A DNA stretch of 64,000 bases from Planctomycetaceae bacterium (lineage in GTDB: Bacteria > Planctomycetota > Planctomycetia > Planctomycetales > Planctomycetaceae), in assembly GCA_021732995.1 (NCBI GenBank), contig JAKFWA010000092.1:1-64000 (forward strand). The letters are read 5' to 3'. Position 1 is the stretch's first letter. Every line of letters starts with the position of its first letter. Positions 14,801 through 41,098 of the stretch are shown here, piece by piece. The position numbers and the translations under genes are program-made. The notes below the pieces were generated by a model. That model had not been told where the DNA came from. It did not search any database and saw only the letters and a list, made by a program, of their open reading frames with translations.

Positions 14801-17800
14801 CAGTCCCGTGAAGGTGAACCGCATCTGACCATACTGCTGCGTCGCCACGTAGCTGTTCAGACTGAGCGACTTCAGTTGCTTGAGTTTGCCGATCGATACT
14901 AGGGCTGCGTTGGTCAGTCGTCCTTCCTGACTCAAGCTCAGGTGAGTGAGGTGCGGTAGTGATTCGAGCAGTTGCGCCCCCGCGTCCGTTGTACCGCACT
15001 CGCCGACGGACAATTCACGCAACGACTTCAGACCAATGATCTGCTTGATGGCAGCGTCACCTAAGCCAGTTCCATCGTGAGCCACGCTGTAGAGCGACAG
15101 CTTCCGCAAGGACGCCATTTCTGAGAGATGAACTAATCCGACAGGCGTCAGTTCTTTCGTGGTCTCAATCGACAGTTCACGCAATCCCGGCAGTGTCTTG
15201 ATCTTCGCCAGCAATTCGTCGTTCACGACGTTGCCAGCAGTGATGGATATGACCTGATCATTGCCGTCGAGCTGCGCGAGTAGTCCGCCACGCTGATAGA
15301 CCGGTTGCAACCACTCGGGCAGGCGCCGCGCGATTTCCTGCTGGTCAGCTTGCAACGTCGTAATGATCAGCTTGCCGTTCTGAACCTTTCGAAATGCTCC
15401 CTGGTGACGATGCCAGGGAATCAATCGATTCAACGCTTCACCCAGCGGTGCGTTCTTGATGGTCAAGGTCATCGGCGAATCAACGTCGAGATCGACTTCC
15501 TTCAGGGCTTGAGCATCCAACCGCAACTCGACTTGCGCAGCTTGAGCCACCAACTTCAAAGCATCCTTGAGTGGCATGGCATTGGCCATCAGCGAAACAT
15601 GGCGGGCCAGGATGTCCTCGTCTCCGGTTTTGGCACTTGCCGTGGCTGGTGGGACGCTACGAAGTTGCCACACAGCCACGCCGTTCTTTGAATCTGTGAA
15701 GCTGACCGCGAACCAGCGCCCGTCACCCGAGAAGGAGCCGTCATGAGCTTCGGTCGGCAGTTCCGTGACGAGCTTTCCGGTCTTCATTGACCAGATGGGG
15801 ACAACTTTGTCAGTGGCGACTCGCGCGAGGAACTGGCCATCTTTGGAGAACACGAATCCGGAGCGACCGTAGCGGAATGGCGCATCGAACTGATGGATGA
15901 ATTCGCCGGATCTGACATCAAGCACCTTCACACTCAGCATGTCGCCCAGCGCGAGTTGACGGCCGTCAGGCGAGAACTTCAAGCACAGAACCTGGCTGGC
16001 TCCAGGCTCCATAATCATGGGATCGGGGTGCACGCGGCCGCGACTCTCATTGGGCACTGCTCGGGCGAGTCTTCCTGTGTTGACTTCCCAAATGCACGTT
16101 CCCTTCCGTTGCCCACCCGTCGCCAGCCACTGACCATCGGGCGAGAGGGCGAGAGATTGTACCTGCACGGCATCAGCATGCTTTACCGTCTGAATGACCT
16201 TGCCTGAAGCGACATCCCACACAATCGCATGAGCGTCGGCGTTGCCGAATCCACCGAAGCCGGGAGTTCGGCCGCAAGCGACTCGCGACATGTCCGGCGT
16301 GCAGGTCAGACCTCGAATGAAGCCGTGCTGCAACTCTTCCGGCAGTTCCAGCCATTTGACGAGTTTGCCCGTTGCCGCGTCCCAGATGCCGATCTTCCCA
16401 TCAAGCACCACAAGCACCCGCTGTCGATCGGCGGACAGCGTGAGGTGGCCACTGAGAAACATGTTGCCGTGCTTCTCGCTGACTAGTTTCACTTCGCTCT
16501 TGAGCTTCTTGTCGACCAGATCCCACGTGCGAATCGAGACGTCGTTCTCCGTGGAAACTGTCGTCAGATTCTTCGCGTCGCGATCAAACCCGACGGCCAT
16601 GACGTTCAGCCGATCGGGCAGCAGGTACGCTGGCTGAACGAGCTTCGCAGCAACTGGTTCGTCCGGCTCTTCGCGGGCTGATAGCACAGCGACAAGTTTC
16701 TCGGCCTCCTCACGTGTGAAATTGCCGGAGATCATGATCTCTGAGCCGATCTCACTGCGGATGACCGGCGCCGCGACAATCGCGCCATCGACGATAATCG
16801 CCAACTGCCGATCCATATGAGCTTTGGTCAGACGACGAAAAGTTGCGCCTGCGGCTTCATCCAGCTTGACGCGAATTGACCAGAGCGAATTCTGATCGGC
16901 CTCAGCGCCGCACTTGATAATGCGGTCCTGGCCGTCCAATACGAAGGCGGTGTCAGTGGTGTCTCCAAGCAATGCGCTCCGCGACTCTCCTCGAGTGCCC
17001 TCGATGGGCAGAATGACGCCGCCGTCTTTTGGCTTGGCAATAGGAACCCAGATGAATCCTCGATCCTTCGCCGCAGTCCGCCCCTCAGGCGTGTTGTCCG
17101 GATAGTGCCGCTGTGTCAGATCCTTCGGAACTCGTGGCTCAGCGTCTGAATCAGCAGGCTGCGCTGCCACGCGGAACTCCAGCGGGGGTAGAGAGAGCTT
17201 AGGCTTCGCCGCAGACGTTTCTTGAGTCCCAGCCTCGGGTGCTTTTTTATCGGCATCGTTGAGCGTAGCGACCTGTTCACGCTGGCCATCGACTAAGGGA
17301 TCATCGACCTCGAGATCCTTCGCCGATTCCTCAATCTGCATTTGGGCTATGTCTGAGTCGGACACGGAGGAGTCGAGGTTCGCGTTGTCTTTGGCGGCAA
17401 GCCCCCAGTTCGACAGCAACACGCACGCCGCACTTAACAGCATCAAACTTAAGAACGTCGCGGGCCAGCGGTTTCGCAGACGCGTTGCGCTACGATCAGG
17501 ACTGGTGCCAACAATCCGGCGAATGCGAGACAGCAGCGAGCCATCATTCGCTCCTAACGCCAGCACCGAGGTTCGTCCGCGACGTTCCTCGATCGCCAGC
17601 AGAGCGCGACCATACTCGACCCGGTTGTCGAACGATTTCACGACGAGATCATCGCAGCAATGCTCACGCTCGATCCGAATCCGTCGAGACAACCACCACA
17701 CCGCAGGGTGATAGAAGAACAGAGTTTCGACCAGTATTTGCAGCAGATTTACCACGAAGTCGTGCCGTCGCACGTGAGCCAGTTCATGGGCCAGGATGGC

Positions 17801-18538
17801 TTCCAATTGACCCGCAGGGATCTCGGTCAACAGAGACGCCGGTAGCAGGATCACGGGCTTGAAGTAGCCCACGACAACAGGAACCTGAGCCAGAGTTGAC
17901 TGCAGCACCCGAACGACGCACCGCAACCCAAGCCTCGAAGCTACCTCCTCTGCCGCCTTCAGGACTTCGTCCGGTACAGGTGACACGCCGACTCGCTTCA
18001 AACGCCAGAGCGTGTGCCATCCCCACAGCGGGCGCACGGAACACACCACAACGCCAGCACTCCAGGCTGCAACGATCCACGTCAGCCAGGGGCGCAGGAG
18101 TTTGGCGAGTTCTTGAGACCACGTGAGGCCAGCGTTCGCATCCAGCGGCGCAGCTGACGGGAACGAGGAAGTGACATCTGTAATACCTGAGGCAGTATCA
18201 AGATCAGACCCTTCGGGAAGTCCTTCGATGTCGCCGCGCAGGGAGTTTGACATCGTAGCGACTGCCTGCGCATCGGTAGGCGCTGACGTGGTTGTGCCGG
18301 GAAACGTTATCGCGTTGAGATCAAGGTTTGGCGAAGTGGCGAGCGGCGGCAATAGCAGCCATGTTGCAACGGGAGCGCTGGTGGCCGCAGTCAAGGCTGC
18401 TACCAATGCGACATATCGCAGCGATGCAGAACTGTACCGCATGACGCGCGCAATCCCTGCTGCAAGCAGCGCCACCGCTGCGAACTGCCAGAGCGAATGC
18501 ACCAGCACCCAACCGAGTTGCTCAACGAATTCGTTCAT
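11900..18538 (-). CDS. Giant BlaR1-type M56 metallopeptidase fused to SecD-P1-like, WD40, LRR and beta-sandwich domains
   Basis: A 2212-residue membrane protein. Residues 1-380 are an M56 peptidase with transmembrane segments near 8-31, 40-63, 151-168, 261-280 and 360-376; zinc motif HELAH at 251-255 and a downstream Glu in EREHCCDD near 290-296. Residues about 515-620 resemble the SecD periplasmic P1 head (LAIIVDGAIVAAPVI, ISGNFTREEAEKL). Residues about 630-965 are WD40-like repeats, 980-1046 an STN-like secretin module, 1110-1446 leucine-rich repeats, 1480-1720 carboxypeptidase-regulatory-like sandwiches, and 1730-1990 a cupredoxin-like module. The last 220 residues are a charged domain of unknown function. 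In the BlaR1/MecR1 family, ligand sensing outside activates the peptidase, which inactivates the BlaI repressor; the blaI gene lies 122 bases upstream. There is no penicillin-binding domain, so the signal is not a beta-lactam in the usual way. GGAG precedes the ATG. Confidence 0.88.
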   Translation of the reverse strand: MNEFVEQLGWVLVHSLWQFAAVALLAAGIARVMRYSSASLRYVALVAALTAATSAPVATWLLLPPLATSPNLDLNAITFPGTTTSAPTDAQAVATMSNSLRGDIEGLPEGSDLDTASGITDVTSSFPSAAPLDANAGLTWSQELAKLLRPWLTWIVAAWSAGVVVCSVRPLWGWHTLWRLKRVGVSPVPDEVLKAAEEVASRLGLRCVVRVLQSTLAQVPVVVGYFKPVILLPASLLTEIPAGQLEAILAHELAHVRRHDFVVNLLQILVETLFFYHPAVWWLSRRIRIEREHCCDDLVVKSFDNRVEYGRALLAIEERRGRTSVLALGANDGSLLSRIRRIVGTSPDRSATRLRNRWPATFLSLMLLSAACVLLSNWGLAAKDNANLDSSVSDSDIAQMQIEESAKDLEVDDPLVDGQREQVATLNDADKKAPEAGTQETSAAKPKLSLPPLEFRVAAQPADSDAEPRVPKDLTQRHYPDNTPEGRTAAKDRGFIWVPIAKPKDGGVILPIEGTRGESRSALLGDTTDTAFVLDGQDRIIKCGAEADQNSLWSIRVKLDEAAGATFRRLTKAHMDRQLAIIVDGAIVAAPVIRSEIGSEIMISGNFTREEAEKLVAVLSAREEPDEPVAAKLVQPAYLLPDRLNVMAVGFDRDAKNLTTVSTENDVSIRTWDLVDKKLKSEVKLVSEKHGNMFLSGHLTLSADRQRVLVVLDGKIGIWDAATGKLVKWLELPEELQHGFIRGLTCTPDMSRVACGRTPGFGGFGNADAHAIVWDVASGKVIQTVKHADAVQVQSLALSPDGQWLATGGQRKGTCIWEVNTGRLARAVPNESRGRVHPDPMIMEPGASQVLCLKFSPDGRQLALGDMLSVKVLDVRSGEFIHQFDAPFRYGRSGFVFSKDGQFLARVATDKVVPIWSMKTGKLVTELPTEAHDGSFSGDGRWFAVSFTDSKNGVAVWQLRSVPPATASAKTGDEDILARHVSLMANAMPLKDALKLVAQAAQVELRLDAQALKEVDLDVDSPMTLTIKNAPLGEALNRLIPWHRHQGAFRKVQNGKLIITTLQADQQEIARRLPEWLQPVYQRGGLLAQLDGNDQVISITAGNVVNDELLAKIKTLPGLRELSIETTKELTPVGLVHLSEMASLRKLSLYSVAHDGTGLGDAAIKQIIGLKSLRELSVGECGTTDAGAQLLESLPHLTHLSLSQEGRLTNAALVSIGKLKQLKSLSLNSYVATQQYGQMRFTFTGLKSLAGLQELEHLHLVGHAALADALVFPKLKTLSLGGTEVDDACAARIAACRDLQELNLVFTGITNVGLRRIAELPDLVRLNLDSAVVTDSGVQHLKKLAKLQHASLRVAALTDESLKHLAEIKSLTRVDLYGGNGFTIGGVQQLNALPDLRTLWLTNFQSPGGFMGLKDLSQLHELSLLMTNLRDDELDQLEDALPNTVIHHATGGGSVRVPRKQRNQIQVGHSDTGQPAANAPLSAKVVEITLLGGSKKEPLAELDVEIISGRGQTPERFGKFRTDDAGRIKVALTPKFYTLLLKSGKERVYLPIDMQVSNPLPKPIPTLDLLITETKVAKWVNGQAIDSDSNQTAQGDRTHRVTYTLLPGCELVLRAVDADTGKGLPGAIFYMENALGEYWAHDISGDNLGAKRTVMEETKDAKPDTTDADGYFRRFVSTNEGYKYGVWKAPPGYEQVKSGVEVEIATPLGKPRAEYVFQFRQKAAAVQAEKPSADMTTLSGRFVFDGQPPAAVDYYSDLSKLQADAPLPRGLDGRVAGVSATYHSYLQQKIRPRTADQTLVVGKDGGLANIVVWVESKDIPWSARKAEDLKPAVLKLKDGNFLPRVTTLMVGQNLLIENHDPIQLNLAADMMRNSSFNTVLPARNTDTPVRLSFPVPERLPARYQSTLAAWANGVLVIRQNPYVAVTSEDGAFAFPELPPGEWEFRAWHERAGYVSHWPKGLFKLLIKPGENSLGTIRIKPEVFGQKSQAVAATPPAKREQIGELFGKPVYRDELKDGDVHTAFFWPVSNKYREDNRVAIEPTADEVRFAADYFDRKHKERLAADGQEAQLRSRLKEVESRLLQPDLPDADEQKLVSEKSSLNARLNPPGAGFAHFMLDNWKLQKRLYDKFGGGRVLWQQAGMEAFDAMRTCLETAEKEGQFKITDPKLRTQFYEYWTRSHGSFLIADKERIRKEFLEPEWVQRKAPTKPTDN

Positions 18539-19194: not shown

Positions 19195-22100
19195 TTATTG
19201 GGGTGCGGCGACTGCCTGGTGCACGGCGGGAACCTGCACGATCCGGAAGCCGACGCGCGATCCCCGAAACACGGGTGCGTAGTCATGCCTGTCGGCGGAA
19301 CGGCAGTCGCGAGCAGCGCTGCTCCAGCTTCCACCACGCAGGACTCGAGTCGCAGATTTGTTCATGCCAGTTGGATCGACATGCGAAGCCGTGAGGTCGT
19401 AGGGACCATACCAGTCGTGGCACCACTCCAGAATGTTGCCGTGCATGTCGAACAGACCTCGGCAATTGGGCCGCAGGCCGGCACCAATGCGAGTCTTGTT
19501 CGCGCTGACATCAAGATACGTGGCGTACTTCACCATCAAAGCCTTATCGCTTCCGAAGCCGTATAAGGAACGCATTCCTGCACGGCTGGCATATTCCCAC
19601 TCGGCCTCTGTCGGCAAGCGGTAGCCCGTACGTTGCAGATCCGTCGGCCAGTTGTCCGGGTCGGCGTTTGATGCTGCGCCGGGGGCTCGCTCAATCGTGG
19701 CAGGATCAGCGTAGCACTGATCTGCTTCCGGGCGTCCGGCCGCTTGAGTCAGCCAGCGGCAATACTTGAGCGCACCGTACCAGCTCGCCGAGTTCATCGG
19801 ATGAGCTGACGTCGGACTTTGCTCTGCGGCGACGGTGATGCCCGTCGGCGCATGAGCATTGAAGTGCTGCCATTGCGCGAGCGTGATCTCCCGATCGCAG
19901 AATGCGATCGGACGAGTTAGCCGAACGTGGTGTGGAGCCTCATCCTGCGACCGCTCTTTCTCGGACACCGGCGAACCCATATCGAACTCGCCGGGTTGAA
20001 AGACGACGAATGTGAAGCAGTCCACAAAGGGCTGGCCGTCAGCTGTCCCACGCACAACGTCGACGTACCAATCGCGTCGCCCAGTCGGGTCGTACGCGAG
20101 CGGCGTTTGGTCGACTTGAGTCACTACTTCTGTCTGGTTCCAGGATCTGAGTAACCAGCCCACGGCGCTATGAATTCCCGATTGGGGATCATGGCGATAC
20201 CAGTCTTCCAGCAGCGTCAGCACCTTCTTGCGGCGATCGGCGGGAATATCGGTCAGTTGAAACTCGCCCAGTGCAATCAGCAGTCCGAGTCGGATCGTGT
20301 AGAGTGGCCCCGTCGCGGATGCTTCAGCTTGCTCAAGAGCATCAAGCAGTTCGGACGTCGTGACTCCACGCGTGCTTTGGCTATGAGCAAACTGCGTCAT
20401 CGCCTCAGGATCATCACGCACTCGTAGCGCATCGAAGGCGTGTCGTGCATCCTTAAGCCGTACCAAGGCAACCGCAGCACCTGCCCGCTGCTTGCCGAGC
20501 GCCACGCGTTCAAACTCAGACAGTGTTGAATTGGGTTCTCGCGCGGCAATGTCCTGGAAGATTGGCAGCACGGCGTCCCGCTGGCTTTCGGCGAGCGGAA
20601 AGAGAATCTCGAACTGAGCGGGATCTGCCTCGGCTAATAGTCTGGCGATGCGAGGGGCGTCACTCTTGACGAACTCTGCCAATGCTGACGCCGCTGCACT
20701 GCGTTCCGTTTCACGCAGGCCAAGGTCTCGAAAGCGAGCTTCCAGATCGGGAGTGAGCTTTGTCGCTAATGGTTGCAGGGCACTGAGGAGCACCGATTGA
20801 TGAATCGGATTTTCTGCTGTGAGACGCTCTGCCAGAAAATGAATATCAGCGTCCGCCCATTCGCCCTGCTGATCCCAACTGGCCAACGCCATTCCCGCCT
20901 TCAGGCGAGCACGCTGCGAGGTGGACGATACCGCGCTGGAATCGCCGCTCGGACCGCGAAACACTGGCCAAAGTTGAGGAACCAGCCGTGCGATTCGCTC
21001 GCTGGACTTGGCCAATCGATCTCGGATGATCGGAAACTCGTCGTAGGACGAATCGAGCATGCGTTCGACAAGGAACGCCGTCTGAGAGTCATCGACATCG
21101 AGCAGAGCGAGACTTGCTCGCAGTTGGGCGACGTTCGAAGCGTCGAGCTCCTCTCTGGTCGTGAAGTATTCGCGGAGCAACGGATCTGCCCAACGGCGAT
21201 AACCGGGCAGGTCCTCATCCAGCAGTCTTGGAAGCTCTGTCGGCACCGCAGAGGCAATCTGCTGCACCAGACGTCGTCCCTGAGAGCGTCCGTTCGTGTC
21301 CCAGGCGACGACACTCAAGGACGTTACAGCCAGTAGCAGCAAAGCCAACAGGCTCCCGTACCAGTGTCGAGCGGCTCTCAGGAGTTGACGCTGCTCGGGC
21401 GATCGATGTGACCGCGGCACGCCAAGTTGAATTGCGATGTACTCAGCGATCGACGGATAGAAGCGTCGTTCTTTCGTACGCAGCCACTGAGTTGTTCGTT
21501 CGGCCAGCGCCAGCTCCGCGCGTCCTCGCCATGTTTCACGCTGCTTGCGAGTCAGCCAGTCGCGGATCGACGGCACAAGATAGTCGTGAGCCAACTGGTA
21601 CGAAGTTGTTTCAGTCTGAGCTGTGGCGGTTGAAGCATCTCCGTCTTCAGCGACCGGAGTAATGATGCGTAGTTCGCGATCCAGGATCTCAAGCAGGCGT
21701 TGAAAGCGCTGCTCATCTTCAAGATCAGACGCGACTCGCAAATCGTTGCGCGTGCGGCGCTGTCCTTTGATGTCAGTACCCACATTCGGCAGCAAGGCTT
21801 TCAGGACACCGCGCACTGGCTTCTCAAGGTGTCGCAGTTCGGGATGTCGAGCCTGACTCCCGAATGTTTCCTCGAGGAAGGCAACGCCGACACCGGCTGC
21901 ACCACCAACTTCGCGCAGCGTTGCAGGGGTCCATTCGCGTTCTCGCAGCATGTCCGCGAACAGACTGAGACGCACGCAGATCACACGTCGGTCTTCGGAC
22001 ATTCCGGTGACTGCGTCGTCCAGAAAATGCTCTTGAGCGGCTGATAACTTCACGTTCAAAGCTGGCAGTCGTCCATAAGCGGCTCCAAACGCATGCAGCA

Positions 22101-24012
22101 CTCGTCGCGCGTGCGACAGGTCAAACAAGTCCACCAGCCGTGAGTTCACGCCGTCAATCAGGGGGATTTCAAGCTCATGAAACAGCCGCGACGTTGGCAC
22201 CCAGAAGTCTTCGCGGATCAGCAACAAGAACTGGATGTTCTCACCATCCGCCTGCCGCAAGGCCCGCACGAGTTCGGTCGCTCGCATCTCAGAACGATTC
22301 ACGTGCAGCCACTGCTCGAACTGGTCAATGACAATCAGCAGCTTGCGACGTTTTCTGAGCAGCGGATCGCGGCGCAGCGTCTTCAGAAATTCATTCAGCG
22401 GCACTTCGGTCTGATTGCTTCCGCGTGCTCCGTCAACGGACTCTGCGTTGGCCTGAGCAAACGTTCCCGGGCATTCGCGACTCACCAGTTGTCGAATGCG
22501 GTCTTCCGTTCCAGACGGTGTTGCTTCCAGATAGACCGCCATCACCGATGGCGACAGTCTTGGAATCAAGCCGGCTTTCACAAGACTGCTCTTACCGCAT
22601 CCCGATGGGCCGTACATCAACCCGACGCTGAATGTTTCATCGCGCCGCGTCTGCTCGATCTGCCGTTTCCATTCGGAGATCGACATCGGCAAGCCGTGCT
22701 TGTCGCGAGTTCCCGGCAGCAGATGCAGGAAGTAGTCGGCGTCGTCTTTGTCGAACGAACGCAGCCCTTTCGGCTCGATCTGAGCAAGGGCCGTATCCGA
22801 GTCAGCAACGGTCGGTCGAGACGTCGTGCTCGCGGCTGCTGATTGATGACCAGTTGACTGTGCCGCAACGGAAACTCCCGACGATGTTGACTGCCCGGAC
22901 GCGGGGCTGGTATGCGTAGCCCAACTGGCGCTCACCGCCGAGTTCATTGAGCCGCCGGTCAGCGTTGGCAGTTCTTGCGGCCAACTCTGATTTGCGGCGG
23001 CGCTTGCGGGTTGTGCCCGCAACGCGATCGCGACTTCGCGCAGCTCCACCGCCATCTCGCCCGCGTGCCGATACCGTTCATCCTGCCGCTTGCGGAGCGC
23101 TCGCTGGCAAATGTGATCGAGTTCGTCCGGCAGCGAGGGGTTTTCGAGCTGCAGAGAGCGAGGCGGAGTCTCGAGGATCAGCCGCTTGAGCTGTTCTGAG
23201 TTGCGATGATCTGCAAAGGGAGGCTTACCGCACAGCATCTCATAGAGCGTCGCGCCGAGGCTGTAGATGTCCGTGCGATACGTGACGAGGTGCGGTTCAC
23301 CATCCGCCTGTTCGGGCGAGTAGTACAACGGCGTACCCGCTGCGGTATCGTCACGCCGCAGCATTTCAGACTCGGTCACCGCGAGGCCGAAGTCCGCGAG
23401 GTACGGCTCACCCCGCGAATCCAGCATGATGTTGGCGGGCTTGATGTCGCGGTGGATGAGCTTCTTGCGGTGAGCGACATACAGGGCATCGGCGAGCTTT
23501 GCCATGATGATTGCGGCGCTCAGGGGATCAAACGGCCCGGACTTCAACTGATCGCGCAGCGTGCCACCGTCGATGTAAGCGTAAACGAGATACCAGTCAT
23601 CCGGTTGACTGTCGGGCAGATGGAAGTCGAGCAGGCGAACAATGTGTGGATGCTCAAGGTTCCGAACCGCTTCGGCTTCTTGTTGCAGAGTTTGCTGAAT
23701 CCGCCTGACAACTTCGGGATGCGTCCCGGGCTTGAACTCAGCGATCTTGACCGCCGCCAGTTGCCCTGCATCATCAACGCCGAGGTAGACCGCTCCGAAA
23801 GAACCCTTTCCGAGTTTCTTTTGAATGCGAAACCGGCCAATGCGCTCGGGTAATTGGCCACTCAGCACCGCTGGATGAACCGCTGGCTTTGAGATCGCCG
23901 AGGCGTCTTCGATACGCGTTTCACCAGATTGAACCGATTCTGCGTCTGCGCCTTTTTGAATCGGTTCATTGGCCGTTGCCTGAGGCTCAAGTTCCTGATC
24001 GGGGTTGCTCAT
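19195..24012 (-). CDS. Ser/Thr protein kinase - STAND NTPase - SUMF1 fusion
   Basis: A 1605-residue membrane protein. Residues about 58-330 are a Hanks-type kinase: glycine loop GKGSFGAVYLG, Lys89, catalytic HRD at 187-189, and DFG at 207-209, all intact. A Ser/Thr/Ala-rich linker follows. Residues about 425-900 hold a STAND-type NTPase with Walker A GPSGCGKS at 468-475 and a Walker B-like LLIVIDQFEQWL. A single transmembrane helix (near 905-925, LLALLLLAVTSLSVVAW) is followed by an alpha-helical region. The C-terminus (about 1345-1590) is a SUMF1/FGE-sulfatase domain with GYRLPTEAEWEYASRAG, GNILEWCHDWYG and LRGGSW. The layout suggests an outer domain sensing something and a cytoplasmic kinase signalling it; the substrate is unknown. 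SUMF1-like domains in such fusions usually lack proven FGE activity. Confidence 0.9.
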   Translation of the reverse strand: MSNPDQELEPQATANEPIQKGADAESVQSGETRIEDASAISKPAVHPAVLSGQLPERIGRFRIQKKLGKGSFGAVYLGVDDAGQLAAVKIAEFKPGTHPEVVRRIQQTLQQEAEAVRNLEHPHIVRLLDFHLPDSQPDDWYLVYAYIDGGTLRDQLKSGPFDPLSAAIIMAKLADALYVAHRKKLIHRDIKPANIMLDSRGEPYLADFGLAVTESEMLRRDDTAAGTPLYYSPEQADGEPHLVTYRTDIYSLGATLYEMLCGKPPFADHRNSEQLKRLILETPPRSLQLENPSLPDELDHICQRALRKRQDERYRHAGEMAVELREVAIALRAQPASAAANQSWPQELPTLTGGSMNSAVSASWATHTSPASGQSTSSGVSVAAQSTGHQSAAASTTSRPTVADSDTALAQIEPKGLRSFDKDDADYFLHLLPGTRDKHGLPMSISEWKRQIEQTRRDETFSVGLMYGPSGCGKSSLVKAGLIPRLSPSVMAVYLEATPSGTEDRIRQLVSRECPGTFAQANAESVDGARGSNQTEVPLNEFLKTLRRDPLLRKRRKLLIVIDQFEQWLHVNRSEMRATELVRALRQADGENIQFLLLIREDFWVPTSRLFHELEIPLIDGVNSRLVDLFDLSHARRVLHAFGAAYGRLPALNVKLSAAQEHFLDDAVTGMSEDRRVICVRLSLFADMLREREWTPATLREVGGAAGVGVAFLEETFGSQARHPELRHLEKPVRGVLKALLPNVGTDIKGQRRTRNDLRVASDLEDEQRFQRLLEILDRELRIITPVAEDGDASTATAQTETTSYQLAHDYLVPSIRDWLTRKQRETWRGRAELALAERTTQWLRTKERRFYPSIAEYIAIQLGVPRSHRSPEQRQLLRAARHWYGSLLALLLLAVTSLSVVAWDTNGRSQGRRLVQQIASAVPTELPRLLDEDLPGYRRWADPLLREYFTTREELDASNVAQLRASLALLDVDDSQTAFLVERMLDSSYDEFPIIRDRLAKSSERIARLVPQLWPVFRGPSGDSSAVSSTSQRARLKAGMALASWDQQGEWADADIHFLAERLTAENPIHQSVLLSALQPLATKLTPDLEARFRDLGLRETERSAAASALAEFVKSDAPRIARLLAEADPAQFEILFPLAESQRDAVLPIFQDIAAREPNSTLSEFERVALGKQRAGAAVALVRLKDARHAFDALRVRDDPEAMTQFAHSQSTRGVTTSELLDALEQAEASATGPLYTIRLGLLIALGEFQLTDIPADRRKKVLTLLEDWYRHDPQSGIHSAVGWLLRSWNQTEVVTQVDQTPLAYDPTGRRDWYVDVVRGTADGQPFVDCFTFVVFQPGEFDMGSPVSEKERSQDEAPHHVRLTRPIAFCDREITLAQWQHFNAHAPTGITVAAEQSPTSAHPMNSASWYGALKYCRWLTQAAGRPEADQCYADPATIERAPGAASNADPDNWPTDLQRTGYRLPTEAEWEYASRAGMRSLYGFGSDKALMVKYATYLDVSANKTRIGAGLRPNCRGLFDMHGNILEWCHDWYGPYDLTASHVDPTGMNKSATRVLRGGSWSSAARDCRSADRHDYAPVFRGSRVGFRIVQVPAVHQAVAAPQ

Positions 24013-24141
24013 CCGCTACAGATCCGCCGCCGGTGTTGAAACAAGTCCTTGGCCCGCATACGGGCAATGAACTCGCCCGTGTCATGTTCTCGTTTCATAC
24101 CGAGTCTCGCGGTCGATCACCACTCGCCGCCCTGATCTTAA

Positions 24142-33874: not shown

Positions 33875-36800
33875 ATGAAACTGACGACAGCACGCTTCGG
33901 AGCGTTTGTTAAGAGTCTACTGGGCGGCGTGTGGAAGAACTCGAAGCCACGTCGTGGACGCGCTCAACGACGTTATTCCCGAGACGGGTTCGCACACGTT
34001 GAGAATCTGGAAGCTCGCGAAGTCATGTCCGCGACGCCGATGCAAGTCGGTATCAACCTGGACAACGTCAATGACTACACGCCGAACTGGATGTTCACGG
34101 ATGCGTTCCAGCATTCTCGACAGTGGATCAGCCATTCGTTCAACACCGTCACGCAGACGCAGGACTTCAACGGTGGAGCCTTCATCCCCGTGCAAACGGA
34201 TGCCAATGGCTGGCCGACACAACTGGCGACTTGGACCAACGCCCACGGTCATCTGATGCAGCAGCGGCTCGGGACGCTCATGTTCCGCGAGCTTGACGGA
34301 AAGTACCCAGCCGGAACTTACCGTGTGGAATGGGATGGGACCGGCGATGTGGTCTTCAACTTTGATGCTCGTGAGACGTCGCGCGGCCGCACTGCCGATG
34401 GTCACAACTTTGCCTTGCTGAACGTCACGCCCGGCAGCGGCGGGATCTATCTGGGCATCAACTCGATGAGTTCCACTGACCCGATTCGCGACATCCATGT
34501 GTGGCTGCCGGACTACAACGGACAGAGCTTTGCGGGTCAGAGATGGCAGCCCGGTGCGAACTTCTCACCGTTCCATCCGCTTTACAAAGAACGCATCGAC
34601 GACTTCGGCATTCTGCGATTCATGCAGACTCAAGAGACCGTGACCTCGGACATCGTGAGCTGGTCAGATCGCCGTGATGCCAATGATGCGCGGCAGTCAT
34701 CAGGTGGCAACGGACCGATGGCAAACGGCATTTCTGTCGAGCACATGGTGCAACTGGCGAATGAACTCGACGCCGATCCGTGGTTCAACATGCCTCACAT
34801 GGCGGACGACAACTTCGTGCGTAACTTCGCCAGCTATGTGCGCGACAACTTGGAACCGGGGCTGACGGCGTATGTCGAATGGTCGAACGAAGTCTGGAAC
34901 TATGCACCCGGCTTCGAGACGTATTACTGGATCGCCGATCAAACTCGATTGCCCGAGAATGCCGGGTTGACTCACTGGCAGATTGCTGGCCGCGAGGCGG
35001 CGCGCGATATGAATATCTGGAGTGACGTCTTCGCCGGTCAGACCGACCGTATTGTGCGCACGGCAGGCGGCTTTGCGGTCAATCCGTGGATCACCGAACG
35101 CATCATCGAGAACATGGGCGGCAGCTTCGACGCAATTGCCATCGCCCCGTATTTCGGACCAAGTGATGCGCAGCGAGCCTCGTACTCCGCGTCTACGACA
35201 GTGGATCAAGTGCTCAATGACATGCGGGGCAACATTGCCTTTAGCGCGCAGATGACCCTAAACCACCAACGGCTCGCGGATGATTACTCCGTCAGACTGG
35301 GTCGCGACATTCAAGTGGTCGCGTATGAAGGCGGACCGCATTTGAATGGCAACAACGCTGCCTATCAAAGCGCCTTGTTCCAGGCCACGAAAGATCCGCG
35401 GATGGCGGACATCACCCGCGACTATCTGCGGATGCAGAATGCAACTGGCCTTGATGCCTACGTGCACTACAAGCTCACCGATCGCGACCGGGCGACGCAG
35501 TATGGACTGTTCGGCGTCTTACTGGCTCAGGATCAACCCACGCGTGAAGCGCACATCTATCGTGCTCTGCTGGATGCAGATGCCGGCACACTCTTCACAT
35601 CAACGCCAACGCTGGTGACGTTGAACGCCGCTGATCCAACGGCCAACGAATCAGGCCTTGGTACCGCGTCCTTCCGGGTCACTCGCGGCGGCGATCTGTC
35701 GCAACCATTGACCGTCAACTACTCGGTGAGCGGCAATGCGATCGCTGGCACGGATTACAACGCTCTCAGTGGTACAGTGACATTCCCGGCCAACGAGAAC
35801 ACGGCCTTCATCACCGTGACACCACGCGACGATGCGACGATCGAAAGTAACGAGGCTGTTACGGTCACGCTGCAGGCAGGTAGCGGATACTCCCTCATCG
35901 GTGCCGAGGCCTCGACCGGCACCATCAACATTGTCAGTGACGATCAGGTTCCGAATCTGTCAACGATCAACATCGTGGCGACCGATCCAAATGCTTCCGA
36001 GGCGGCACGTGATCCCGGTGTGTTCACCGTCACTCGAACGGGCGGTAATACGGCTGCAGCACTGACCGTCTGGTTCCAGAATGGCCAGCAGACTGCAGCG
36101 GGGGCGGATTACGATTCGATCCCGATGAACGTCACGTTTGCCCCAGGTCAGACGACCTCCACAATCACGATTCGTCCCGTCGATGACGCGACGGTGGAGA
36201 ATCGTGAAAGCGTCATCCTCTATATGAACGAATCGACGATGTATCGGCTCGGTGCCAGCAGTGCGGCCCGAATTGATATCTCGGATAACGACGTCGCACC
36301 GCCGCCGGTCACTCCTCTGATCGCCGTCGCGGCAACAGATGCCGATGCTGGTGAGGCGGGTACGAATCCTGGCACATTCACCCTGACACGCACGGGTGCG
36401 TTAAATAACACTCTGACCGTTCGCTACACGGCTTCAGGTACAGCGACGGGCGGCTTTGACTTTGGCGCATTGGGCGGATTTGCCTACTTCGAGTGGGGCC
36501 AGACGACAACCACTGTGGTTGTGAATCCGTATAACGACCCAACGTTCGAGCCGGTTGAAACCGTGATTCTCAATCTCACCGATGGCGCTAGTTACGACCT
36601 CGGTGCAACATCTTCCGCGACCGTGAATGTCACGAGTGATGACGCTGCTCCAGCACTGCCCACGGTGACCATTGTGGCGACGGACGCCAACGCTGCTGAG
36701 CGAAATCGCGATGTTGCGACCTTCACTGTCACTCGGACGGGAAGCTCGACCGCTGCTCTGCAGGTGAACTACTCGCTGAACGGATCAGCGACCAATGGAA

Positions 36801-39800
36801 GCGACTTCGATGCTCTTGGCGGCTCCGTCGTAATTCCTGCGGGACAGGCCTCAGCAATGATCACGGTACGGCCGATCGACGACACTGCCATCGAGTCCAA
36901 TGAAACCGTCGGCCTGACGCTTGTCACCAACGCGGCGTACCAATTGGGAGCAGCCAACTCCGCGACCGCGACCATTGTGAGTGATGACGTTGCCACCGCG
37001 CCACCTACCGTGACAATCTCCGCGGTCGACGCCAGTGCTGCTGAACTGAACCTGGATGTGGCCATGTTCCGTGTGAGTCGCACGGGCGCTACGACGGCTC
37101 CACTGACAGTGAACTACACCGTCGGTGGCACGGCGACCAACGGTGCAGATTACAACCAACTGACTGGCAGCATCATCGTTCCGGCTGGAGCCAGCTATGC
37201 CACGATCACAGTGACACCGATCGATGATACTGCGGTTGAAACCGCCGAATCGATTGTGGTGAACCTGGCCCGCAACGCGGCTTATCAACTCGGCACTACG
37301 GTTTCAGCGACAGCAACACTTGTCAGCAACGACGTAGCACCAATCTTACCAACGGTGACGATCCGGGCGACAGACCCGACTGCCGCCGAAGCCAATCGAG
37401 AGACAGGTAACTTCACTGTCTCTCGAACCGGATCGGCTACGAATCCATTGGTTGTGAACTATTCACTGTCCGGCACCGCGACCAATGGCTCTGACTTTGA
37501 CAGCCTCAGCGGTTCAGTAACGATCCCGGCCGGACAGTTTTCCGCGCCAATCGTGTTACGCCCGGTTGACGACACGACGGTTGATCCCAACGAAACCGTA
37601 ACTGCCACTCTAGTTGCCAATGCGGCTTATCAGTTAGGGACTTCGCAAGCTGGCACGGTAACGATCACCGACAACGACACGCCTACGCAGGCTCCTCTAC
37701 CGGTCCTGTTGGTCATCGCGAACAACGACTTCTACTACCAGGAGTATGCTGACCCACGAACTCAGTTCCTCGCCGCCGGGATACCGGTTGTTGTTGGTGC
37801 TGGCCGTCGAGAACTCTCAACGCCACACCCGAATTCAGGACAGGGCTCAGCGTCTGGTCAGGTGATGCCGGATATCGCACTCGCAGATGCAAGTGCTACC
37901 AATTACTCAGCGATTGTCTTCGTGGGTGGATGGGGAGCGACGCAGTATCAGTACGCGTTTTCGGGCGTCTACAACAACCCCGCTTACAACGGCACTCCTG
38001 AGATTCGAGCCGCCGCGAATCGGTTGATCAATGAGTTCATCGCTCAGAACAAGGTCATTGCAGGCGTCTGCCATGGTGTCAGCGTGCTGGCCTGGGCTCG
38101 AGTCAATGGACAGAGCCCACTGCAGGGACGCACGGTGACGACTGCTGAGTTCTATTCACCGGCCAACAACCTGCCTGATGCCAACTCCTATCGCTGGCAC
38201 TCGGAGACCAACGGCGCGACCGTGTTCACTGCTGGTGTTCTTGGTGATGTGAGTACTCGCAACGACGATGTCATGGTAGATGGCCGCATCATCACCGGTG
38301 AGAACTTCGATTCGGCTCGTCAGTTTGGCATCACGATCGCCGACCGTTTGCGAAATGGAGCAACCACAACCGCGACCATCGCCGCAACCGATGGGTCCGC
38401 TGCAGAAACAGCTCGTGAGACCGGCACTCTTTCTGTGACGAGAACCGGATCGACAGCAGCCGCTTTGGCTGTGAACTACTCGCTGGGCGGGACGGCCACA
38501 AACGGCACTGACTATGACGGCCTGCGTGGTACTGTGGTTATTCAGCCGGGCCAGACGACAGCACCAATTACCGTTCGCCCGATCGACGACACTGTTGTCG
38601 ATGCTAACGAAACGGTGAACGCGACGCTCGCAGCAAATCCAGCCTACAACCTGGTCAGTGCTGTCTCCGCGAGCGTCTTGATCGCTGACAACGATACGGC
38701 CGCCCCCGTTTTGCCCACAGTCACGATTGCTGTCACGGATGCCGCTGCTGCTGAAGCCAACCGTGAAACTGGAGCATTCACGGTCTCACGAACAGGTTCG
38801 ACGGCCGCTCCTCTGGTCGTGAACTACTCACTGTCAGGCTCTGCGACCAACGGCTCCGATATCGACAACCTCAGCGGCTCAGTGACGATTCCCGCCGGAC
38901 AGTCAGCAGCCACGATTGTTGTGCGCCCCGTCGACGACACGCTGGCGGACGCCAACGAAACTGTGATGCTGACGCTTGCGGCGAATGCTGCGTATCAAAT
39001 CGGTGCAGCCCAGTCAGGAACGGTCACGATCACCGACAACGACGCTCCCACACAGGCTCCGCTGCCGGTGTTGCTAGTAATTGCTAATAACGACTTCTAC
39101 TACCAGGAGTATGCTGACCCGCGAGCCCAGTTCCTCGCCGCCGGGATACCGGTTGTTGTTGGTGCTGGCCGTCGAGAACTCTCAACGCCACACTCGAATT
39201 CAGGACAGGGCTCAGCGTCTGGTCAGGTGATGCCGGATATCGCACTCGCAGATGCAAGTGCTACCAATTACTCAGCGATTGTCTTCGTGGGTGGATGGGG
39301 AGCGACGCAGTATCAGTACGCGTTTTCGGGGGTCTACAACAACCCCGCTTACAACGGTACTCCAGCGATTCGAGCTTCCGCGAATCGCTTGATCAATGAG
39401 TTCATCGCTCAGAACAAGGTGATTGCGGGCGTCTGCCATGGCGTAAGCGTGCTGGCCTGGGCTCGTGTCAATGGACAAAGCCCGCTCCAGGGACGCACCG
39501 TGACGACTGCTGAATTCTATTCACCCGCCAATAACCTGCCTGATGCCAACTCGTATCGCTGGCACTCAGAAGCGAACGGGGCGACCGTGTTCACCGCTGG
39601 TGTTCTCGGGGATGTCGGTACCCGCAACGATGATGTGCTCGTCGATGGTCGCATCATTACTGGCGAGAACTTTGATTCGGCTCGTCAATTCGGCATTACG
39701 ATTGCCCAACTTATCCGCAACGGAGCCGAGACGACCGCAACGATCTCTGCGACGGATGCTTCGGCTGCGGAAGCGAGTCGCGAAACGGGCACGCTGGCCG

Positions 39801-41098
39801 TCACTCGCACCGGCTCAACAGCGGCTGCTCTCGCCGTGAATTACTCGCTCGGTGGAACAGCGACGAACGGAGCAGACTACGACAATCTGCGCGGCACCGT
39901 TGTGATTCATCCCGGCCAGACGACCGCTGCGATTGTGGTTCGTCCTGTCGATGACGCGACCGTCGATCCCAATGAGACCGTGATTGCTACACTGGCCGCG
40001 AATTCGTCTTACTTGCTGGGCTCGGCGACAGTCGGAACAGTCACCATCGCGGACAATGATGTCGCCGCTCCGGTCACTCCCACAGTGACCATTGCCACGA
40101 CTGACTCTTCCGCCGCAGAAGCGAATCGCGAAACGGGAACCTTCACGGTGACTCGCACGGGTTCCACCGCTGCAGCACTGACCGTGAACTACACGCTCAG
40201 CGGAACCGCGACGAATGGCTCTGACTATGACAGTCTGACAGGCAGCATCACGATTCCCGCCGGACAAGCATCGGCAACGATCGTGGTGCGACCAACCGAT
40301 GACACGGCCGTCGATGCCAACGAATCTGTGATCGTGACTTTGGCTTCCAACGCGGCTTATCAACTGGGCGCCACCACTGTCGGAACAGTGACGATCGCCG
40401 ACAACGACGCGCCCACTCAAGCTCCGCTGCCGGTGCTGATCGTCATTCCCAACAATGACTTCTACTACCAGGAATACGCTGATCCGCGGGCCCAATTGGA
40501 AGCCGCTGGAATCGGAGTTGTCGTTGCAGCCGGACGTCGTGAACTTTCCTCGCCGCATCCGAACTCAGGGCAGGGCTCTCTCAGCGGAACCGTGATGCCG
40601 GACCTCACGCTGGCAGACGCGAATGCCTCGAACTACTCGGCGATTGTCTTCGTCGGCGGTTGGGGAGCTAGCCAGTATCAGTACGCGTTCTCCGGCACGT
40701 ATGCCAACGCGGCTTACAACAGCACGACCGCCATCAGGGCTCGAGTGAATCAGTTGATCAACGACTTCGTCGCTCAGAACAAACTGGTAACGGCCCTGTG
40801 CCACGGAGTGAGCGTGCTGGCCTGGGCTCGCGTGAACGGCCAAAGCCTGCTGCAGGGACGCAACGTGAGCGTCTACAACGGTGCATCGCCACCGAGCAAT
40901 GTAGCGGCTGCTCAATCGTCTCGCTGGCACTCTGACGTGAACGGCGCGACGGTCTTCACGAACGGCCAAGTCGGCAATCCCACGACGCGAACCGATGACG
41001 TCATCGTGGATGGTCGCATCATCACGGCTGAGAACTTCGATTCGGCCCGGCAGTTCGGCATCACGATCGCCAATCAGGTGCGAGCCGCCGCCCAATAG
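33875..41098 (+). CDS. Giant exported Calx-beta protein with GH-like head and three DJ-1/PfpI domains
   Basis: 2407 residues. Residues 1-55 are basic, then carry the Planctomycete export or anchoring signature VENLEAREVMSA. Residues about 55-570 contain a beta-rich part and a TIM-barrel-like region with YVEWSNEVWNY (Glu339 as a possible acid/base), suggesting a glycoside-hydrolase ancestry. Ten Calx-beta domains follow from about 585. Three DJ-1/PfpI-like domains are placed after Calx-beta 6, 8 and 10, each with a nucleophile-elbow CHG: Cys1399, Cys1854 and Cys2309, exactly 455 residues apart. There is no dockerin or LPXTG signal; the protein ends with the third DJ-1 domain. Calx-beta domains usually bind calcium and mediate adhesion; the role of exported DJ-1 domains is not known. 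GGAGAAGAG precedes the ATG. The gene stands alone between hisB and a leftward cluster. Confidence 0.85.
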   Translation: MKLTTARFGAFVKSLLGGVWKNSKPRRGRAQRRYSRDGFAHVENLEAREVMSATPMQVGINLDNVNDYTPNWMFTDAFQHSRQWISHSFNTVTQTQDFNGGAFIPVQTDANGWPTQLATWTNAHGHLMQQRLGTLMFRELDGKYPAGTYRVEWDGTGDVVFNFDARETSRGRTADGHNFALLNVTPGSGGIYLGINSMSSTDPIRDIHVWLPDYNGQSFAGQRWQPGANFSPFHPLYKERIDDFGILRFMQTQETVTSDIVSWSDRRDANDARQSSGGNGPMANGISVEHMVQLANELDADPWFNMPHMADDNFVRNFASYVRDNLEPGLTAYVEWSNEVWNYAPGFETYYWIADQTRLPENAGLTHWQIAGREAARDMNIWSDVFAGQTDRIVRTAGGFAVNPWITERIIENMGGSFDAIAIAPYFGPSDAQRASYSASTTVDQVLNDMRGNIAFSAQMTLNHQRLADDYSVRLGRDIQVVAYEGGPHLNGNNAAYQSALFQATKDPRMADITRDYLRMQNATGLDAYVHYKLTDRDRATQYGLFGVLLAQDQPTREAHIYRALLDADAGTLFTSTPTLVTLNAADPTANESGLGTASFRVTRGGDLSQPLTVNYSVSGNAIAGTDYNALSGTVTFPANENTAFITVTPRDDATIESNEAVTVTLQAGSGYSLIGAEASTGTINIVSDDQVPNLSTINIVATDPNASEAARDPGVFTVTRTGGNTAAALTVWFQNGQQTAAGADYDSIPMNVTFAPGQTTSTITIRPVDDATVENRESVILYMNESTMYRLGASSAARIDISDNDVAPPPVTPLIAVAATDADAGEAGTNPGTFTLTRTGALNNTLTVRYTASGTATGGFDFGALGGFAYFEWGQTTTTVVVNPYNDPTFEPVETVILNLTDGASYDLGATSSATVNVTSDDAAPALPTVTIVATDANAAERNRDVATFTVTRTGSSTAALQVNYSLNGSATNGSDFDALGGSVVIPAGQASAMITVRPIDDTAIESNETVGLTLVTNAAYQLGAANSATATIVSDDVATAPPTVTISAVDASAAELNLDVAMFRVSRTGATTAPLTVNYTVGGTATNGADYNQLTGSIIVPAGASYATITVTPIDDTAVETAESIVVNLARNAAYQLGTTVSATATLVSNDVAPILPTVTIRATDPTAAEANRETGNFTVSRTGSATNPLVVNYSLSGTATNGSDFDSLSGSVTIPAGQFSAPIVLRPVDDTTVDPNETVTATLVANAAYQLGTSQAGTVTITDNDTPTQAPLPVLLVIANNDFYYQEYADPRTQFLAAGIPVVVGAGRRELSTPHPNSGQGSASGQVMPDIALADASATNYSAIVFVGGWGATQYQYAFSGVYNNPAYNGTPEIRAAANRLINEFIAQNKVIAGVCHGVSVLAWARVNGQSPLQGRTVTTAEFYSPANNLPDANSYRWHSETNGATVFTAGVLGDVSTRNDDVMVDGRIITGENFDSARQFGITIADRLRNGATTTATIAATDGSAAETARETGTLSVTRTGSTAAALAVNYSLGGTATNGTDYDGLRGTVVIQPGQTTAPITVRPIDDTVVDANETVNATLAANPAYNLVSAVSASVLIADNDTAAPVLPTVTIAVTDAAAAEANRETGAFTVSRTGSTAAPLVVNYSLSGSATNGSDIDNLSGSVTIPAGQSAATIVVRPVDDTLADANETVMLTLAANAAYQIGAAQSGTVTITDNDAPTQAPLPVLLVIANNDFYYQEYADPRAQFLAAGIPVVVGAGRRELSTPHSNSGQGSASGQVMPDIALADASATNYSAIVFVGGWGATQYQYAFSGVYNNPAYNGTPAIRASANRLINEFIAQNKVIAGVCHGVSVLAWARVNGQSPLQGRTVTTAEFYSPANNLPDANSYRWHSEANGATVFTAGVLGDVGTRNDDVLVDGRIITGENFDSARQFGITIAQLIRNGAETTATISATDASAAEASRETGTLAVTRTGSTAAALAVNYSLGGTATNGADYDNLRGTVVIHPGQTTAAIVVRPVDDATVDPNETVIATLAANSSYLLGSATVGTVTIADNDVAAPVTPTVTIATTDSSAAEANRETGTFTVTRTGSTAAALTVNYTLSGTATNGSDYDSLTGSITIPAGQASATIVVRPTDDTAVDANESVIVTLASNAAYQLGATTVGTVTIADNDAPTQAPLPVLIVIPNNDFYYQEYADPRAQLEAAGIGVVVAAGRRELSSPHPNSGQGSLSGTVMPDLTLADANASNYSAIVFVGGWGASQYQYAFSGTYANAAYNSTTAIRARVNQLINDFVAQNKLVTALCHGVSVLAWARVNGQSLLQGRNVSVYNGASPPSNVAAAQSSRWHSDVNGATVFTNGQVGNPTTRTDDVIVDGRIITAENFDSARQFGITIANQVRAAAQ
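37681..38352 (+). repeat. DJ-1/PfpI repeat unit 1 within the giant gene
   Basis: First of three DJ-1-like modules. Key motifs: NNDFYYQEYADPR, FVGGWGA, GVCHGVSVLAWARVNGQS. From about 37757 to 37990 it is nearly base-for-base identical to unit 2 (two differences in about 230 bases), though the flanks differ more. Confidence 0.9.
39046..39717 (+). repeat. DJ-1/PfpI repeat unit 2 within the giant gene
   Basis: Second module, offset 1365 bases from unit 1. Same key residues; the nearly identical tract runs from about 39122 to 39355. Preceded by two Calx-beta domains of its own. Confidence 0.9.
40411..41095 (+). repeat. DJ-1/PfpI repeat unit 3 within the giant gene
   Basis: Third module, again offset 1365 bases. 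It keeps the YYQEYADPR, FVGGWGA and CHGVSVLAWARVNGQS motifs but has drifted in DNA and in the segment after the nucleophile elbow (NVSVYNGASPPSN replaces the TTAEFYSPANN of the others). It forms the C-terminus of the protein. Confidence 0.9.

Follow-up and report, generated by a model that had tools for sequence, protein, structure and literature searches.

DJ-1/PfpI modules on a planctomycete Calx-beta giant and a possible sigma-factor and receptor-kinase circuit around them

Described systems closest to the locus

DJ-1 has been studied mainly as an intracellular single domain, and its function is disputed. The modules described here resemble the members of the DJ-1/PfpI family (PfpI, YhbO, SAV1875, and human DJ-1) in their fold, in a nucleophilic cysteine placed after a strand, and in a glutamate of the N-terminal part, glutamate and cysteine being the working pair of DJ-1 proteins. 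However, they measure about 215-225 aa against the 165 positions of the PF01965 profile, they are repeated within a giant protein built on Calx-beta domains, and the histidine of their CHG motif is variable. Large-subunit catalases, which carry a DJ-1/Hsp31-like C-terminal domain, are like the giant in that the DJ-1 fold forms part of a longer chain, but the giant has no catalase domain and keeps the active-site cysteine. With the giant surface proteins of planctomycetes it shares an N-terminal motif of the LEPR type, a repeat stalk, and its large size, and the DJ-1 modules are what it adds to them.

Among regulatory systems, EcfP/ECF43 resembles the circuit proposed below in that a sigma factor gene adjoins a Ser/Thr kinase gene. 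The acidic DAED motif is replaced in EcfP-type ECFs regulated by Ser/Thr kinases (STPKs), according to PMC8103513, whereas the sigma factors linked to the kinases of our loci, which end in a DJ-1-like domain or in the ND domain introduced below, retain acidic residues there. Class I anti-sigma factors have Hx3Cx2C as their zinc-binding signature, as given in PMC7406223; our kinases share this N-terminal signature, membrane location, and a gene beside an ECF gene, but continue into a Ser/Thr kinase domain and end in an ectodomain of the DJ-1-like or ND kind.

The main text of a study on planctomycete giant genes (PMC5177795) mentions neither Calx nor DJ-1, and that of a study on planctomycete kinases (PMC11032199) neither DJ-1 nor ThiJ. 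A literature search, whose scope left out most subscription papers and the whole of bioRxiv, found nothing that treats PfpI and Calx-beta together. Planctomycetes with Calx-beta returned, judged by title, Zobellia work alone; anti-sigma factor, protein kinase, zinc finger, ECF, and Planctomycetes returned no joint literature; and for DJ-1 with receptor kinases, or ECF with kinases and Planctomycetes, nothing was relevant by title among the matches listed. Every part is thus known already, and the combination appears to be new. The sequence-only reading of this DNA had proposed an undescribed cell-surface system; its PfpI/Calx-beta pairing is indeed one we did not meet in the literature, and its export and enzymatic role are putative.

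The giant and its three DJ-1 modules

The window, by which we mean the whole stretch of DNA that was analyzed (64,000 nucleotides, positions 1 to 64,000 of contig JAKFWA010000092.1 of Planctomycetaceae bacterium, GCA_021732995.1), contains an ORF that starts with ATG and encodes 2407 aa with no internal stop. The gene and its features, all on the + strand, are as follows.

33875..41098, +, whole gene, 2407 aa: N-terminal surface motif, head, 10 Calx-beta repeats, 3 DJ-1 modules
34007..34033, +, LEAREVMSA, residues 45-53: pattern of a planctomycete-type surface motif
34037..35638, +, head, residues 55-588: uncharacterised family with invariant N338-E339, E485, and H489
35609..37678, +, Calx-beta repeats 1-6 (Pfam)
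37691..38353, +, DJ-1 module 1, residues 1273-1493: E1290, H1318, C1399
38069..38071, +, codon of the nucleophile Cys1399 of module 1
38366..39043, +, Calx-beta repeats 7-8 (Pfam)
39056..39718, +, DJ-1 module 2, residues 1728-1948: E1745, H1773, C1854
39434..39436, +, codon of the nucleophile Cys1854 of module 2
39731..40408, +, Calx-beta repeats 9-10 (Pfam)
40421..41095, +, DJ-1 module 3, residues 2183-2407: E2200, H2228, C2309
40799..40801, +, codon of the nucleophile Cys2309 of module 3

Pfam detected ten stretches of Calx-beta (PF03160, E 3.8e-92) and three of DJ-1_PfpI (PF01965, E 2.5e-33) in the protein. The Calx-beta repeats lie at residues 579-690, 696-806, 813-923, 928-1038, 1043-1153, and 1158-1268 (repeats 1-6), 1498-1607 and 1613-1723 (7 and 8), and 1953-2062 and 2068-2178 (9 and 10). 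Since the modules start at residues 1273, 1728, and 2183, they are placed after the sixth, eighth, and tenth repeats, as the sequence-only reading had described, and its CHG cysteines at 1399, 1854, and 2309, exactly 455 residues apart, were recovered from the translated ORF, where they are the sole cysteines among the 2407 aa. This spacing is explained by duplication of a Calx-Calx-DJ-1 unit, because modules 1 and 2 are 91% identical in DNA and module 3 is 71% identical to either; a search for tandem repeats detected no arrays. Comparison of modules 1 and 2 gives 48 silent and 7 replacement codon differences (dN 0.016, dS 0.41), and therefore the copies have been maintained by purifying selection.

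Each module alone was recognized by PF01965, with 44.4, 45.0, and 54.1 bits for modules 1, 2, and 3 against a curated cut-off of 26.6. In an alignment of 44 de-duplicated modules longer than 180 aa, the window copies included, the nucleophile cysteine (module position 128), its partner glutamate (position 19), and a second histidine (position 47) are invariant (44/44 each). The titles of the PDB entries for SAV1875 mutants (E17, C105) agree with glutamate and cysteine as the working pair. The histidine that follows the cysteine in the PfpI-type CHG is present in all three window copies and in 29/44 modules across the family, so the neighbouring His and Glu expected by the sequence-only reading are both there in the window, but the former varies within the family.

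An AlphaFold2 model of module 3, built from five sequences, had a mean pLDDT of 55.9 and a pTM of 0.63, with a better first half and a weak C-terminal half; its strand 123-128 terminates at the cysteine, where the local pLDDT is ~60. The best Foldseek match of the model was SAV1875 (E 5.7e-7), and the other top matches included a ThiJ/PfpI protein of Brachyspira and a PfpI-type protease of Pyrococcus; YhbO and DJ-1 ranked lower. VIA-align superposed 149 residues on 4hcj (Z 12.6, rmsd 3.5) and gave many KatE rows with Z of about 12, which align through the C-terminal, DJ-1-like part of this catalase. Structure prediction, proposed earlier as a check of the DJ-1/PfpI identity, thus agrees with it. 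The DJ-1/PfpI domains that the giant carries on its Calx-beta scaffold are real and have their Cys/Glu site intact, and this architecture exceeds chance, as judged by the Pfam scores, the Foldseek matches, dN/dS, and its recurrence in other genomes.

The giant is probably a cell-surface protein, as suggested by LEAREVMSA, which we take to be a LEPR-type planctomycete surface motif. The pattern occurs in 5/7 related giants versus 0/25 of the shorter ND+DJ-1 proteins described below. The export assumed by the sequence-only reading gains from this motif and loses from the N-terminus itself, which has no hydrophobic signal segment. PF07595 (Planctomycete extracellular) was undetected in the window protein by Pfam and stayed below the cut-off in three relatives (L052, L193, and L195), and an NCBIfam search with the first 75 aa gave no matches. 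A lineage that keeps the DJ-1 site in a probably exported protein, in several copies and with a genetic tie to a receptor kinase and a sigma factor, would offer an independent route to what this site senses or does.

The head belongs to a family whose 14 relatives, at 34-88% identity, all keep N338-E339, E485, and H489. An N-E and E...H pattern resembles that of clan-A glycosidases, which makes the glycosidase-like head of the sequence-only reading a lead and no more: the pattern is invariant, but a Pfam or PDB sequence match to go with it is absent. The head alone had no match in Pfam or among PDB sequences, a profile of 15 heads had 0 matches among PDB sequences, Pfam on the 15 heads gave a single, spurious match (E 0.093), and NCBIfam matched neither the head nor three N-termini. 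An AlphaFold2 model from two sequences reached a pLDDT of 29.5. The head is present in 26/170 genomes of the order, frequently in giants without DJ-1 and also in ORFs of 541-542 aa (L106 and L107). In a distant planctomycete family, an 893-aa ORF (L197, 6754-9432) has head and DJ-1 in one chain without Calx-beta, so the pairing of the two is independent of the stalk.

Relatives and neighbouring sigma factor and kinase genes

Relatives of the module were found in 37/150 genomes of the order (E 1e-10 or better) and in 10/392 genomes sampled across the phylum (E 1e-15), the latter including six that belong to a different family in the class and one from further away. The census does without two module fragments of genome G084 (contigs C509 and C161), and the counts exclude L108 (on the contig of L061), L069-L071 (pieces of the window gene), and L068 (the same as L062). 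The Calx-beta/DJ-1 order, which the earlier reading had suggested looking for in other planctomycetes, was found at seven other loci, the head, Calx-beta, and DJ-1 design being shared by the window, L041, L042, L043, L044, L045, L054, and L061. Three modules, true of the window protein, make it an exception among these relatives, as L061 (MAG Planctomyces sp. isolate F1-80-MAGs005) has two and the others one, with L054 cut by a contig end. A contig scan with two peptide patterns from the near-identical modules hit one locus, L061, and because only these two patterns were scanned, the single match is no gauge of spread.

Other designs carry the module as well. Surface DJ-1 proteins of 640-810 aa combine it with cadherin and RTX by Pfam in the three that were scanned (L048, L056, and L058), and DUF1349 accompanies it in L052 and L193. 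Proteins of the ND+DJ-1 design are ~500 aa long, ND being the N-terminal domain before DJ-1, with a likeness to 3-keto-disaccharide hydrolase that is weak and below Pfam's cut-off; one of them (L055) is encoded in the window's genome. The same genome encodes, at 3861-5933 of L063, a 690-aa protein with a part that we read from its sequence as nitrilase-like and a C-terminal DJ-1-like domain that matches PF01965.

ECF and STPK genes within 2.6 kb accompany 17/31 non-ND loci versus 0/25 ND+DJ-1 loci (Fisher p 3.4e-6), a contrast that was picked after the data were seen and a p-value that ignores relatedness. Scored as misses among the 31 were the window itself, five short pieces at contig ends or with broken frames (L060, L128, L201, L205, and L218), and four loci at contig ends (L044, L052, L057, and L134). 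A kinase gene alone lies near 6/25 of the ND+DJ-1 genes, and an ECF gene near none.

The arrangement varies among the linked loci. In L041, L043, L045, L061, and L133, the order on one strand is ECF, kinase, surface gene; the kinase upstream of the giant ends in a DJ-1-like domain in the first four, and in L133 the surface DJ-1 protein that follows the DJ-1 kinase is of the 650-aa type. The linked kinase of L042 (G139) is at a contig end with its frame broken. All six genomes of the other family have ECF, kinase, and surface DJ-1 genes in this order on one strand, with a kinase that ends in the ND domain; these ectodomains score 230-240 bits against a profile of the ND domain of ND+DJ-1 proteins. 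Divergent from their ECF and kinase genes are five loci of the 640-810-aa type (L051, L056, L058, L132, and L135), whose kinases lack both a DJ-1 ectodomain and a zinc finger, and a Calx-DJ-1 gene (L046). Of the five kinases only that of L056 was tested for its outer domain, which is LamG.

The window, on the other hand, has no ECF gene by two profiles, and its sole kinase match, at 19198-24015 on the - strand, is of a different kind from the DJ-1 kinases. The giant of G084 (L054) is likewise unlinked. In G110, 790 bases separate the start of the giant (L044) from a contig end, and the DJ-1 kinase reaches within about 240 bases of the end of another contig, so the two might adjoin.

ECF and kinase genes are likewise neighbours of head giants without DJ-1 (L103, 483-9463; L110, 1677-9236; also L105 and L109), with a kinase C-terminus of the ND type at L110 and of the FGE-sulfatase type at L103. 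A broader rule for the surface giants of planctomycetes could lie behind this, and the linkage may therefore belong to the whole surface protein rather than to DJ-1. At L176 (5224-9268), a head fragment of which ~65 aa matched immediately precedes the genes of an ECF factor and a DJ-1 kinase, and it looks like the remains of a lost giant.

The distribution of DJ-1 kinases was followed with an ectodomain profile, A4, made from eight kinases. It identified ten genomes at >=188 bits, the next match having 97 bits, and ORF reading added G110 (88.9 bits), G054 (77.8), and G063 (50), for a total of 13/170 genomes; a frame-broken candidate in G098 (L198) stands outside the 13. DJ-1 kinases occur in 9/9 giant-bearing genomes, among them G142 with a giant cut by a contig end, versus 4/161 others (p 2.7e-12), and by genus in 5/5 with a giant versus 4/53 without (p 2.7e-5), p-values that were computed on related genomes ignoring kinship and a co-occurrence that the profile favours, since 6/8 of its seeds come from giant-bearing genomes. 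In the window's genome, the DJ-1 kinase (735 aa, cysteine kept) is on contig C20, unlinked to the giant, and none of the ORFs listed around it is an ECF gene. In that genome, 17 ECF matches reach at least 54 bits in the linked sigma-factor subfamily, and a chance ECF neighbour should therefore be uncommon.

DJ-1 and ND kinases have a common build. Hx3Cx2C precedes the kinase domain in 11/12 DJ-1 kinases (the twelfth, L114, is cut by a contig end), in 7/7 ND kinases, and in 4/19 other kinases, one of the four being the frame-broken DJ-1 kinase of L042. Between the kinase and the outer domain, 19/19 DJ-1 and ND kinases have one or more hydrophobic segments, two of them in L061. The outer DJ-1 domain has lost its cysteine in 8/11 kinases (L041, L043, L045, L061, L127, L175, L176, and L177) and retains it in those of L062, L126, and L133; the eight would thus be incapable of the same chemistry as the module. 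Whether the ectodomains originated from the neighbouring secreted modules was examined by a tree, which held only one intracellular DJ-1 and had very long branches: the 12 kinase ectodomains (93/100 support) and the secreted modules split apart.

A possible sensing circuit and other readings

Surface DJ-1 genes that, in related bacteria, often stand beside a kinase with an outer domain sometimes of the same fold point to an undescribed sensing system. In the reading that we prefer, and that we hold to be evenly balanced between right and wrong, the giant would serve as the exported protein that displays DJ-1 in a three-part circuit, whose other members are an ECF sigma factor and a membrane kinase; export, the chemistry, and contact with the kinase are what we infer here. 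The head and Calx-beta stalk would display the DJ-1 modules, one to three across the family, with their reactive Cys-Glu site kept, and this site may bind or chemically handle an outside compound, an electrophile or oxidant being a first guess from DJ-1 chemistry. The kinase would combine a zinc finger of the anti-sigma type with a Ser/Thr kinase domain, a membrane segment, and, on the outside, a DJ-1-like or lectin-like ND domain that senses either that compound or the surface module once loaded; it would then free or phosphorylate the sigma factor, which would activate the surface protein's own gene. We infer the ligand, the contact between the two DJ-1 domains, and the release of the sigma factor as we do export. 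Control of the EcfP type was ruled against because the linked sigma factors retain the acidic DAED motif, and release from an anti-sigma factor therefore looks the likelier switch. Because the kinase is unlinked in the window's genome, its regulating this particular giant would be a further step drawn from the relatives. A receptor of this design, with anti-sigma zinc finger, kinase, membrane segment, and matched outer domain, may explain how planctomycetes control some of their many giant surface proteins.

A stricter form, in which reactive surface modules and the mostly cysteine-less DJ-1 domain of an anti-sigma receptor kinase form a matched pair that senses by DJ-1-to-DJ-1 contact, we consider unlikely. 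If true, the kinase would sense the oxidised or adducted cysteine of the surface modules, and the cell would use the surface array as a sacrificial probe of the chemistry around it or of contact with kin.

The invariant Cys and Glu of all 44 modules would also be expected if the modules were surface enzymes only, which detoxify aldehydes or cut peptides, with the sigma factor and kinase regulating an ordinary surface protein. That none of the 25 ND+DJ-1 genes lies near an ECF gene fits this as well, as the module is there used without a circuit. However, such enzymes leave unexplained both the DJ-1-like or ND ectodomains of the linked kinases and the DJ-1 kinase in every giant-bearing genome, and we regard this explanation as possible, if rather unlikely. 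DJ-1 and PfpI are oligomers, and the modules might instead pair between cells or chains as an adhesive cross-linker, their cysteine being only structural or redox-tuned; Calx-beta, cadherin, and RTX, which accompany the module, are typical components of adhesion proteins, and the module count runs from one to three along with the Calx-beta spacing. An invariant Cys and Glu, though, exceed what pairing needs, which makes a cross-linker distinctly unlikely to our minds. Planctomycetes are rich in giant genes, mostly for surface proteins or synthetases according to PMC5177795, and a DJ-1 domain could have been captured by such a gene with no selected role. This is highly improbable given the dN and dS of modules 1 and 2 and the spread of the module, with its sites intact, across two families and a third, distant genome.

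Beyond the preferred circuit, the window holds other large multidomain genes on the - strand. The protein that gave its sole kinase match (1605 aa) joins a Ser/Thr kinase to an nSTAND1 NTPase and a C-terminal FGE-sulfatase domain, resembling a signalling or conflict protein. Another, of 2212 aa at 11903-18538, has an unusual mix of domains, with an M56 peptidase of the BlaR1 type, a part that resembles the SecDF P1 head, WD40, and leucine-rich repeats.
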